Of a DNA stretch of 64,000 nt, positions 19,521 through 22,937 are shown one piece after another. The stretch is from NCBI GenBank assembly GCA_945890485.1, contig CAMDCN010000010.1, forward strand, positions 1-64,000. The letters run 5' to 3'. Positions within the stretch are counted from its first letter, which is position 1; each line of letters begins with the position of its first letter. The translations under genes and the position numbers were made by a program. A model generated the notes under the pieces. It worked only from the letters and a program-made list of their open reading frames with translations, searched no databases and was not told where the DNA came from. The DNA comes from Candidatus Sulfopaludibacter sp. SbA3. Lineage in GTDB: Bacteria > Acidobacteriota > Terriglobia > Bryobacterales > Bryobacteraceae.

Positions 19521-21143
19521 TTATGGCGCTGAGAGCGCAGCGGCCTTGGCGGAATCCTGGTCGGCAAGGGAGGTCTGGCCGAGGGCCCGATAGGAGGCGG
19601 CACGGTTCCGATACGCGTTGGCGTAGTTGGGGTTAAGGCGAATGGCCTCCGTGAAGTCGGGAACTGCCTTTTGGTACTGGCCAAGGCGCATGCGGGCGTA
19701 GCCGCGGCCATTGAGCGCAAGCGGGAAATTGGGGCGCAGCGAGATGGCGCGGTCGAACTCACCAATCGCCTCGGCAAACTGATTGGCCTGGGCGAGCGCG
19801 CGGGCGCGATTATGCGCGGCGTCGGCGGTGGGGGCTGGTGTTGTTGGCCGGGGCGACGGCGCAGCGGCGGGTGGCGGCGGAGCGACAACCGTAGCGACTG
19901 CCGCGACCGCCGGGACCGGTGGCGGAGCGGTTGGAGTTGGCGGGGGCGGCTCTGGAGCGGGCGCCGGTGGCGGGGCCGGGGCAGGCTTGCCTGCCAGAAG
20001 ACGCTCCTGCGTGCGGTTCAGAATAGAGCGGATCTCTGTGTTATCTGGTTGAAGAGAAAGGGCTTTGCGGAGGTCGGTCTGCGCTTTGTCGAACTCGCCG
20101 GTGAGGAAGTAGGCACTTCCGCGCGCAAGCCACGCCTCAGCCAGCGTGGGGGCGAGTTCAATGGCTTTAGTACGATCGGCGAAGCCTTCCGGGTGGCGGT
20201 CGAGAAGGTGGTAGGACCCGCCGCGGGCAATATAGGCGCGGGGGTTATCCGGTTGCAGACGGATAGCTTCGGAACGGTCGGCGAGGGACGCGTCGATACG
20301 GCCGAGCTGGACGAGGGCTCCGGAGCGGGCCAAAAAAAGGTTGGCATCGTCGGGAGTGAGTGCGAGGGCGGCAGTGAGATCCTCGACCGACAACTGCCAT
20401 TGGTTGAGCCGTTTGTGCGCTTCCCCGCGGAGGAAGAGGGCGCGCACGGAGCGGGGCGAAAGTTGGATCGCTCTGGTGAGGTCGGCGACGGAGTTGGAGA
20501 ACAGACCCATCTGGCCGTGGGCGAAGCCGCGTTCCGTGTACGCCTCAGCCCAGTCGGGGCGGAAGTCGATGCATCGGTTGAAGTCATCAATAGCGTCCCG
20601 CCAGCGCTGGATCTCAATGGCAGCCTTGGCGCGGTCGAAGTAGGGCTGAGGGTCATCGAGGCGTAGGCGGATAGCCGCCGTAAAGTCGACGATCGCTTCG
20701 GCGAACTGCTTCTTCTGGACGCGGGCTTGGGCGCGGGAATGGAAGAGCTTGGCGGAGTTGGCTCCGGCGTCGATGGCCTGCGTAAGGCGGGTGATCGCGG
20801 CGTCCCAGCGGCTGGACTCAAAGTCCAGGATGCCGAGGGCCTGGAGCGCATCGGGGTCGTCTGGATGGAGGCGGAGGGCCTGCTCCAGGTCGGCGGCCCC
20901 GCGAGTTGTGTCCTTTAGCTGGAGAAAGACTTTGCCGCGTTCGCGATAAGCGTCCGCGAAGTCCGGGGCGTAAAGGATGGCGGTGGTGAGCGACTCCAGC
21001 GCGTCCGCGGACCGGTTGCGGGCGATGGCGGACATGCCGAGTTCGTAGGCCTTCTGGGCACGTTTCGGGTCGGTTTGGTTGGCGGCTGCGATTGAGGCGC
21101 AGAACAGAATTGTGCCAAGAAGTTGCCGGAGTCGCTTTGCCAT
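19521..21143 (-). CDS. Exported tetratricopeptide-repeat protein
   Basis: From the ATG at 21143 the protein (540 aa) has a signal peptide (MAKRLRQLLGTILFCASIAAA). About ten TPR units follow, each of 34 residues with the A-Y/F-x-x-R-G-x-A/S pattern (AYRERGKVFLQLKDTTRGAA, AYIARGGSYHLLDRHPEGF and so on). A Pro/Ala-rich linker of about 60 residues (about 395-455) precedes two more TPRs at the C-terminus. TPRs mediate protein-protein contacts; no enzymatic domain is seen. The ATG at 21170 would overlap the rhodanese end. TATACT occurs about 14 nt upstream. Confidence 0.85.
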   Translation of the reverse strand: MAKRLRQLLGTILFCASIAAANQTDPKRAQKAYELGMSAIARNRSADALESLTTAILYAPDFADAYRERGKVFLQLKDTTRGAADLEQALRLHPDDPDALQALGILDFESSRWDAAITRLTQAIDAGANSAKLFHSRAQARVQKKQFAEAIVDFTAAIRLRLDDPQPYFDRAKAAIEIQRWRDAIDDFNRCIDFRPDWAEAYTERGFAHGQMGLFSNSVADLTRAIQLSPRSVRALFLRGEAHKRLNQWQLSVEDLTAALALTPDDANLFLARSGALVQLGRIDASLADRSEAIRLQPDNPRAYIARGGSYHLLDRHPEGFADRTKAIELAPTLAEAWLARGSAYFLTGEFDKAQTDLRKALSLQPDNTEIRSILNRTQERLLAGKPAPAPPPAPAPEPPPPTPTAPPPVPAVAAVATVVAPPPPAAAPSPRPTTPAPTADAAHNRARALAQANQFAEAIGEFDRAISLRPNFPLALNGRGYARMRLGQYQKAVPDFTEAIRLNPNYANAYRNRAASYRALGQTSLADQDSAKAAALSAP

Positions 21144-21166
21144 GAAGGGATGACCCCAGTATAGGA

Positions 21167-21559
21167 TCAATTCTTCTTCATTTCTTTCGGATAGATCAAC
21201 TCGTAGCCCTTCCTTTTATACTCTTCGAGGCCCATGAAACTAACTTGTTTGTAGCCGTTCTTGCGCAGGATTTCCGCTGCCCTCCGGGCGCGGCCTCCGC
21301 GGTTTCAACCAGCGACCAGGAGCGCGTCCTTCGGGATCTCGTTGAGACGGGATTCGAGTTGGCTCATGGGGATGTTGACGTAACCCTCAATAGTGCCGAG
21401 CTCTTCAAGCTCTTTGGGTTCGCGGACGTCAAGAAAAAAGAGCTTCACTTTCTTGTCGATCAGGTCCTTGAGGCCGTCGGCCGAAAGCTCCTTTTCCTGC
21501 GCTTGGCAGGACAGAGGAAGCGCTGCGAAAAACGTGGCGAGCATAGATCGACGATGCAT
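21167..21559 (-). CDS. Candidate selenocysteine-containing rhodanese (UGA at the catalytic Cys position)
   Basis: An exported single-domain rhodanese. From the ATG at 21559 there is a signal peptide (MHRRSMLATFFAALPLSCQA), then LFFLDVREPKELEELG and IEGYVNIPMSQLESRLNEIP, typical of the domain. The frame reaches IPKDALLVAG, then a TGA (21305-21307), then continues in the same frame with NRGGRARRAAEILRKNGY, VSFMGLEEYKRKGYELIYP and a normal stop at 21167. The TGA sits exactly at the active-site Cys of the CxxGxR loop (here xNRGGR). The 46 codons after it encode a fully conserved second half, as expected for selenocysteine insertion and not for decay. The alternative is a single point mutation of TGC/TGT, or a sequencing error. 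The Sec reading gives 130 residues. TACTAT 5 nt upstream of the ATG suggests a leaderless message. Confidence 0.75.
21274..21293 (-). promoter_or_regulatory. SECIS-like hairpin downstream of the UGA
   Basis: In the mRNA, CCGC then GCCC (21293-21286) pairs with GGGC then GCGG (21282-21279 and 21277-21274), with one bulged A at 21278, closing a GGA loop (21285-21283). The loop begins 19 nt after the UGA and starts with G. Bacterial SECIS elements lie inside the coding region just after the UGA and have a short stem, a small apical loop with an early G, and a UGA-to-loop distance of roughly 16-37 nt. All are met here. GC-rich DNA forms hairpins easily, so this supports but does not prove recoding. 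Confidence 0.5.
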
Positions 21560-21632
21560 ACCCCATAGTACTGCTAGGGACAATCCGATCTACTGTTCCG
21601 TGGGGGGCGGGCCGATTGAACTCATAGGAAAC

Positions 21633-22937
21633 ATGCGGACTTTGTACCTTCATCCGGTCGGGTCTCCCGCCCCGCCGTCGGGCTGGGAGAGCGAATCATG
21701 CGCCCGCCGGGGGCTCCAGTGCCTACAAGAACACGCGTGCGAGGCGGCGATTGTGGAGTTGCCAGTCGCCGGGATGAGCCCGGAGGAGTGGTTGGTAGCC
21801 GCCTTGCGGTTGCGGCCGGCCCTGCGGGTGGTGTTTGTGGGGAGCAGCGTGCGGGAAGCGGTGGCGCTGTTGCGTTCAGGCGCGACGGACTACGTGGAGA
21901 CAAGGGGAGCAGCGCTAGCGGCGGCGGGACGGGTACCTTTGGCAGTAGTTCCGGTCGCGGAGCCTTGGCGGCGGTTGCTGATTGGCGATAGTCCGGCGAT
22001 GCGGCCGGTTCTGGATACCATCCGATTGCTGGGACCGCGACGGAGCACTGTGCTGATTTCTGGAGAGACCGGGACGGGAAAAGAGGTGGTGGCGAAGGCG
22101 ATTCATGCGGCGAGCTTGCGGGCGCGCGAGGCAATGGTTTCCGTGAATTGCACGGCTTTGCCGGAGGCGCTCTTGGAGGCAGAGCTGTTCGGGCACGTGA
22201 AGGGTGCCTATACGGGCGCATTTCAAGGGCGAAAGGGCCGCTTCGAAGAAGCGGACAAGGGAACGATCTTCTTAGACGAGATCGGGGACATGCCGATTGA
22301 AACGCAGGCGAAACTGCTGCGGGTGCTGCAGGAGCGGGAGTGCCAGCGGCTGGGGTCGAGCGAGTTGGTCAAGCTGGACGTCCGCGTGGTGTCGGCGACG
22401 AACGCGAATCTGGAAGAGCGGATTGATCGGGGCAAATTTCGCGAAGATTTGTTCTATCGTTTGAACGTGGTGCCCCTGCATCTGCCGCCTCTGCGGGAGC
22501 GTCCTGATGACATTCCCATGCTGATCGAGCATTTCGTCGACAAGGTGTGCCGGGCGGAAGACTTGCCTCGGAAACGGGTAGTGGCCGAGGCGTTGGAACG
22601 GCTGCGGGAGTATTCGTGGCCGGGGAACGTGCGGCAGTTGGAAAACACCGTGGAGCGTGCGGTGGCGCTGAGCGGTGAGCGCCCGACGCTTCACTTTGGG
22701 GATTTCAACTTGCCGGTGCGCACGGTAGTGAGCGCTCCCGCGCCGGTGGCGGAAGCCGTTCCCGCTTTGACGGACCAAGGGCTGGACTTCGCGGCAACGA
22801 TCCAACGGCTGGAGCGAACGTTGATTGAGCAGGCGTTGCGGAGGAGTAAAGGCAACAAGAAGCAGGCGGCCGATATGCTCAGGCTGAAGCGGACCACGTT
22901 GAGCGCCAAGCTGAAGAGCTTGGAGGAGGTGGCGTGA
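21633..22937 (+). CDS. Sigma-54-dependent transcriptional activator with receiver-like N-terminus
   Basis: 434 residues from the ATG at 21633 (AGGAAAC just upstream). Residues about 1-100 resemble a response-regulator receiver, but the phosphorylated Asp position reads IVELPVAGM, with Glu42, so phosphorylation is unlikely and the domain may be locked or ligand-sensing. The AAA+ domain follows: Walker A GETGTGKE (about 144-151), the sigma-54 contact motif GAYTGA (about 191-196), Walker B GTIFLDEIGD, and the sensor/Arg-finger region EDLFYRLNVVPLHLPPLRER. The Fis-type HTH is at the end (NKKQAADMLRLKRTTLSAKLK). It is divergent from the rhodanese gene and directly upstream of the orphan permease, which carries a sigma-54-like promoter. 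Confidence 0.92.
   Translation: MRTLYLHPVGSPAPPSGWESESCARRGLQCLQEHACEAAIVELPVAGMSPEEWLVAALRLRPALRVVFVGSSVREAVALLRSGATDYVETRGAALAAAGRVPLAVVPVAEPWRRLLIGDSPAMRPVLDTIRLLGPRRSTVLISGETGTGKEVVAKAIHAASLRAREAMVSVNCTALPEALLEAELFGHVKGAYTGAFQGRKGRFEEADKGTIFLDEIGDMPIETQAKLLRVLQERECQRLGSSELVKLDVRVVSATNANLEERIDRGKFREDLFYRLNVVPLHLPPLRERPDDIPMLIEHFVDKVCRAEDLPRKRVVAEALERLREYSWPGNVRQLENTVERAVALSGERPTLHFGDFNLPVRTVVSAPAPVAEAVPALTDQGLDFAATIQRLERTLIEQALRRSKGNKKQAADMLRLKRTTLSAKLKSLEEVA

Follow-up and report, generated by a model that had tools for sequence, protein, structure and literature searches.

Rhodaneses containing selenocysteine (Sec) have been predicted in bacteria on several occasions. A rhodanese-related sulfurtransferase is listed, with the number 3, in the 2005 Sargasso Sea paper (PMC1088965), further Sec-rhodanese types are listed in the 2008 GOS paper (PMC2398784), and a 2016 survey contains one type (PMC5029168). 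The table of a 2022 review gives several forms, headed 'Predicted' (PMC9312934), and that of a 2026 review also gives several, two of them with UxxG (PMC13188914). Going by these lists and tables, the novelty that a first-pass annotation of the DNA studied here had implied for a Sec-rhodanese was too high, as such proteins had been published earlier as predictions.

The protein described here is encoded in the window, i.e., the whole 64,000-nucleotide stretch of DNA that was analysed. In the table of the 2026 review, forms 2 and 4 (representatives MBM9537886.1 and MCY3690685.1) share with it PF00581 and a Sec that opens UxxG; the likeness is to the description given in that table. The string 'acidobacter' is absent from the main text of the same review, and a search of the open-licence literature found no paper on an acidobacterial Sec-rhodanese. 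Form 3 corresponds to the model NF041203 (rhodanese_LYCAU), a small rhodanese-related (seleno)protein like that of the window. This model matches all 34 scanned family members at E <= 0.001; the window protein scores 28.8 bits (25.5 without its N-terminus) against a cut-off of 115. The motif of NF041203 is CxU in the review table (PMC13188914), while the window protein has UxxG without CxU.

TsoB (NF045694), described as a rhodanese/DsbD fusion-like double selenoprotein, is a rhodanese-type selenoprotein too. However, it is a fusion with two Sec in UxxxxU, whereas the window protein has a single internal TGA and gives no match to NF045694 at E <= 1. PspE and GlpE consist of the same single domain, and the window protein scores 27.0 and 14.5 bits against their models (cut-offs 102). 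The catalytic residue of PspE and GlpE is Cys, not Sec. Ten NCBIfam models match the window protein at E <= 1, none of them above its cut-off. As the protein lies far below the cut-off of NF041203 and below that of every NCBIfam model it matches, it appears to be a newcomer among the known Sec rhodaneses and perhaps a new subfamily, with forms 2 and 4 compared by description alone. We thus see it as a well-supported new branch of a kind of protein already predicted in other bacteria.

The features of the locus are collected in Table 1. Read on the minus strand from 21559 to 21167, the translation begins with MHRRSMLATFFAALPLSCQAQEKE... and runs through 84 residues, a TGA (21307-21305), 45 further residues and an ordinary TGA stop. 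The internal TGA is the first position of the active-site loop U-N-R-G-G-R. The rhodanese frame with an in-frame TGA at the catalytic Cys, as claimed in the first-pass annotation, is therefore real, and the strand, which had been left unstated, is minus; the plus strand at the same coordinates (21167-21559) holds a frame unrelated to rhodanese. A standard gene caller would truncate the protein just before the active site, as the first-pass annotation also states, leaving an 84-residue product. The annotation of many acidobacterial genomes would then list a fragment without activity in place of a catalytic enzyme. A scan for sigma-70 promoters over 21100-21720 gave no match.

Table 1. Features of the putative Sec-rhodanese locus, in window coordinates.
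Feature	Position	Strand	Remarks
Putative Sec-rhodanese gene	21167..21559	-	ATG 21559-21557, stop TGA 21169-21167; 130 residues, Sec = residue 85
In-frame TGA, read as Sec, at the catalytic position (UNRGGR loop)	21305..21307	-	aligned with the TGA/Cys codons of 42 loci
Rhodanese domain, Pfam PF00581	21215..21481	-	residues 27-115 of the read-through product; predicted fold, solved-structure matches
Probable signal peptide MHRRSMLATFFAALPLSCQA	21500..21559	-	read by eye from the sequence; N-termini of relatives alike
Predicted bacterial SECIS hairpin	21274..21293	-	loop GGA (3 nt) starts 19 nt after the UGA; 8 bp, one bulged A
Sigma-54 activator (AAA domain and Fis-type HTH), divergent	21633..22937	+	Pfam Sigma54_activat, HTH_8 (frame scanned from 21636); start ATG 21633 chosen by hand

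We suggest that the gene encodes a probably exported single-domain rhodanese, very probably with a Sec nucleophile and made by UGA read-through with the help of a SECIS element. The read-through product (with C entered for Sec) scores 47 bits with the Pfam Rhodanese model, whose cut-off is 22.2. Taken by itself, the stretch up to the TGA scores 23.9 bits, while the part after it alone has no Pfam rhodanese match, only one to LytR_C below the cut-off. As the whole product matches, the first part more weakly and the second not at all, the TGA splits one single domain. An AlphaFold2 model built from an alignment of 34 Sec-form sequences has a pLDDT of 88.8 (an alignment-free structure prediction was poor, pLDDT 54, and was set aside). 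The best solved structures found by Foldseek are rhodanese domains, 3tp9 with a query TM of 0.85 and 3gk5 with 0.84. A profile search of PDB sequences agrees with the rhodanese fold (37 distinct sequences, E <= 0.001) and has PspE and GlpE structures among its matches.

From its N-terminus the rhodanese is probably exported and extracytoplasmic; relatives in another family (f3) have, as read by eye, a LAAC-like lipobox at this end. Because of the rhodanese fold together with the signal-peptide-like N-terminus, the most likely role would be extracytoplasmic transfer of sulfane sulfur (persulfide or polysulfide) through the selenol. A true selenoprotein could also have a redox job, e.g., that of a periplasmic reductase of thiols or peroxide, or handle selenium or metalloids instead of transferring sulfur. 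Most prokaryotic selenoprotein families are thought to be redox-active according to a review (PMC9312934), and we regard such a job as possible but rather doubtful here, given the rhodanese domain, the spacing of the UxxGxR loop and the homologues with Cys at the same position. The first 50 solved folds found by Foldseek, moreover, include persulfide dioxygenase-rhodanese fusions and persulfide reductases.

For the selenol rhodanese we propose the following mechanism. SelB with Sec-tRNA(Sec) would read the UGA, aided by a hairpin whose stem starts 11 nt downstream, and the ribosome would then continue to the ordinary stop, as the machinery and the conservation suggest. The mature protein would probably work outside the cytoplasm. 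Judging from the fold, the selenolate could attack the sulfane sulfur of a persulfide, a polysulfide or thiosulfate, and the six-residue loop could hold the resulting Se-S intermediate until the sulfur is passed to a thiol or another acceptor. In the literature searched, we found no paper in which a Se-S intermediate was shown in a natural rhodanese.

A search with the read-through protein covered 61 genomes (that of the window and 60 relatives) and gave matches in 58. The 42 best-scoring loci are the top 42 rows of this search; the script admitted only U or C at the site, and all 42 matched. The comparison of homologues at this site, proposed in the first-pass annotation, gave TGA in 34 of these loci (from 32 genomes) and Cys in the other 8, and a TGA at this position is therefore not due to chance. 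Outside the 42 are four more distant Cys paralogues (L066, L068, L072 and L073), two loci with no hit (L069, L070), a decayed copy (L067) and a repeat of L025 (L071). The closest homologue, in genome G001, is 84% identical and has TGA too.

In a sample of 396 genomes from the phylum, TGA is found at the same site in 14 of the 15 matches with E <= 1.5e-27, the range covered by the per-locus look. From a named collection came 89 relatives; of the 80 retained, 69 have acidobacterial titles by manual count, many of them Bryobacterales, Bryobacteraceae or Solibacter. Judging by these relatives, the window very probably comes from Bryobacterales itself. In the wider set of 110 loci from the phylum sample and the named collection, the script assigned 71 to U, 29 to C, 3 to S and 1 to TAA, with 6 motifless. 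The 3 S calls are misplaced reads of ordinary CRSGNR paralogues. Among the motifless six (L113, L121, L152, L166, L187 and L195), the printed text has U in L166 and L187, and C in L121, L152 and L195. The counts for 42 and 110 loci are not additive, as many of the 110 come from the same genomes as the first set. The Sec-rhodanese family is frequent in Bryobacterales and found in other Acidobacteriota.

Selection on the two sides of the site was compared by Nei-Gojobori counts on 14 pairs, 13 of them Sec and 1 Cys. Before the site, non-synonymous change is lower than synonymous change in all 14 pairs, and after it in 13 of 14, the exception (L046/L049) having one change only. Between the window and G001, pN is 0.046 and pS 0.52 downstream of the TGA. 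Purifying selection acts on both sides of the TGA.

The Sec and Cys forms were placed on a tree of 77 rows (61 Sec, 16 Cys) and 104 columns, with Sec entered as C to keep the label from shaping the tree, and with four named motifless loci and ten further named loci left out. Sec/Cys changes number 8 on this tree, and well-supported branches require at least 5 of these, whereas shuffled labels average 14.7; the columns are few and 17 of the 73 inner branches are open. With these roughly 8 exchanges, the family offers closely related natural Sec and Cys versions of a single enzyme, well suited to testing the contribution of Sec to sulfur-transfer chemistry.

These results bear on the reading of the TGA as a true stop or a miscall, in which a nonsense mutation or a sequencing error would have left a pseudogene. 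Two other copies in the family are indeed visibly decayed: L033, one of the 34 Sec loci, is defective with an additional in-frame TAG after the Sec codon, and L067/L199, the second of two copies in G010 and not one of the 42, reads TAA at the site and is broken in its tail. However, 34 of 42 loci, drawn from separate assemblies, share the TGA at this codon; together with the purifying selection downstream and the 61 Sec rows with their few exchanges on the tree, this makes a pseudogene extremely improbable. Decayed frames in close relatives had been named in the first-pass annotation as a check, and the frame after the TGA is open in the relatives, bar L033 and L067/L199. Conservation thus rules this reading out, the one exception being a miscall confined to this sequence at a codon that truly encodes Sec. 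A TAG in G046 was considered as a different recoding codon and rejected, as it is the terminal stop of a Cys form.

Decoding of the UGA by Sec would need the corresponding machinery, another of the proposed checks, and SelA, SelB, SelD and tRNA-Sec are all present in the same genome (7.1 Mb in 35 contigs, 97% complete). SelB is found on contig C2 (378.8 bits, cut-off 242.25), tRNA-Sec on C12 (70.6 bits, cut-off 47; anticodon TCA (UCA) by ARAGORN), SelA on C6 (E 2.7e-118) and SelD on C9 (L074:1489-2805, 354.9 bits). SelD itself has a single in-frame TGA close to its start (MSTRKLTAHVKAAGUASK..., with GUASK). As a review table counts a UxxK selenophosphate synthetase as a selenoprotein verified by experiment, this TGA-containing SelD is an internal sign of Sec use in the genome.

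SelA alone is weak evidence and its association not discriminating, because 252 of the 396 phylum genomes have it. It is found in 10 of the 13 other phylum genomes with a TGA-containing match (E <= 1.5e-27). In the three TGA-form genomes where no SelA was found, G200 has SelB at a contig end, G326 has a C-terminal piece read as SelB, and the best that G140 (75% complete) shows for SelB is an elongation-factor-like match that stays under the cut-off.

Decoding of the UGA as an ordinary amino acid, by a code change or a suppressor tRNA, would leave the frame open, as any code with TGA as sense does, but this is rejected as hardly credible on the grounds that the same gene terminates in TGA, that the genome has the Sec machinery and the TGA-containing SelD, and that the alternative residue in the 42-locus set is Cys in 8 of 8. 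Recoding to Sec, which the first-pass annotation took as the natural reading, is thus supported by the machinery, by the TGA/Cys homologues and by the open downstream frames.

The hairpin predicted downstream of the UGA in the window has an energy of -12.3 kcal/mol and is also present in the minimum-energy fold of the 42 nt. The limits given for bacterial SECIS elements in PMC13188914 are a loop of 3-9 nt with G in the first two positions, a spacing of 16-37 nt, 4-16 bp and an energy <= -7.5 kcal/mol, and the window hairpin lies within every one of them. A similar hairpin with spacing 19 is found in L025-L030, L033, L036 and L054. The energy of the hairpin is, in this GC-rich stretch, not above chance, as tried in three ways without a significant result. 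From synonymous shuffles, 16.9 of the 34 Sec genes and 3.0 of the 8 Cys genes would be expected to reach the -7.5 kcal/mol limit; the numbers observed are 15 and 4. The mean codon-shuffle z of the 42 nt is +0.45 for the Sec genes and -0.43 for the Cys genes, and the energy of the window hairpin is matched by about 4 of 40 synonymous and 21 of 200 dinucleotide shuffles. A scan of 20500-22300 against Rfam gave no match at E <= 1.

As the folding energy is not significant, the signal at the RNA level rests on synonymous conservation, a CGT codon and covariation. Within codons +1 to +12, the share of comparisons in which the same residue is written with a different codon is 75 of 216 (0.35), 18 of 111 (0.16) and 54 of 219 (0.25) in three Sec clades, and 43 of 83 (0.52) in a Cys clade; these comparisons took in 19 of the 34 Sec genes and 5 of the 8 Cys genes and are not independent. 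Other stretches give 0.28 to 0.58 in the Sec clades and 0.31 to 0.46 in the Cys clade. Codons +13 to +24 of the third Sec clade are nearly as conserved (0.28) as its codons +1 to +12. Codon +8 is CGT in 23 of 34 Sec genes and in none of the 8 Cys genes, while CGT makes up 24 of the 281 other Arg codons of the Sec genes.

The covariation test used 21 of the 23 genes with a CGT loop, the remaining two being identical to included ones over 48 nt. In these 21 distinct Sec genes the CGUGC loop never varies, and its stem shows covariation, which is clear at two pairs, one changing from C-G to G-C and the other from C-G to U-A. The covariation score is 0.253 against 0.098 for shuffled alignments, with none of 500 shuffles as high, although related sequences inflate such scores. 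Stem cells are paired in 81% against 71% in shuffles. Of the seven pairs, however, three do not form in 9 or 10 of the 21 sequences, and 75 of 500 shuffles have as many pairs with changes on both sides.

Two predicted SECIS loop types with nearly equal spacing are seen in this protein family, one with the invariant CGUGC and one with GGA or GGC (L024-L030). The latter is the loop in most members of the window's own clade. A single protein family with two predicted hairpin types, one GGA-like and one CGUGC, is of interest in itself.

By manual reading, the window and 16 of 66 named loci, three of them Cys loci, have the sigma-54 activator in divergent orientation next to the rhodanese; of these 16 one is split in two frames and one truncated, antisense frame matches were set aside, and some of the 66 loci end at contig ends. 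The activator thus recurs beside both Sec and Cys forms in part of the family. From the gene order, it may control the rhodanese in the window's clade. Tentatively, and with less confidence than for the Sec reading itself, it can be speculated that the locus belongs to a broad, so far unmodelled acidobacterial family of exported selenol rhodaneses with repeated Sec/Cys swaps, which would carry out extracytoplasmic persulfide chemistry via Se-S and, in the window's clade, would have a dedicated divergent sigma-54 activator.

The protein encoded downstream, a TPR protein, has relatives in 8 compared loci including the window, with some genomes entering twice. A different clade has, next to the rhodanese, proteins that resemble an aminotransferase and a GNAT protein, as judged by reading their sequences. 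Finally, copies on two contigs titled Acidimicrobiia (L141, L181) and on one titled Arcobacter (L169) are placed among acidobacterial branches of the tree, for which misnaming or misbinning of the assemblies seems a likelier explanation than transfer.
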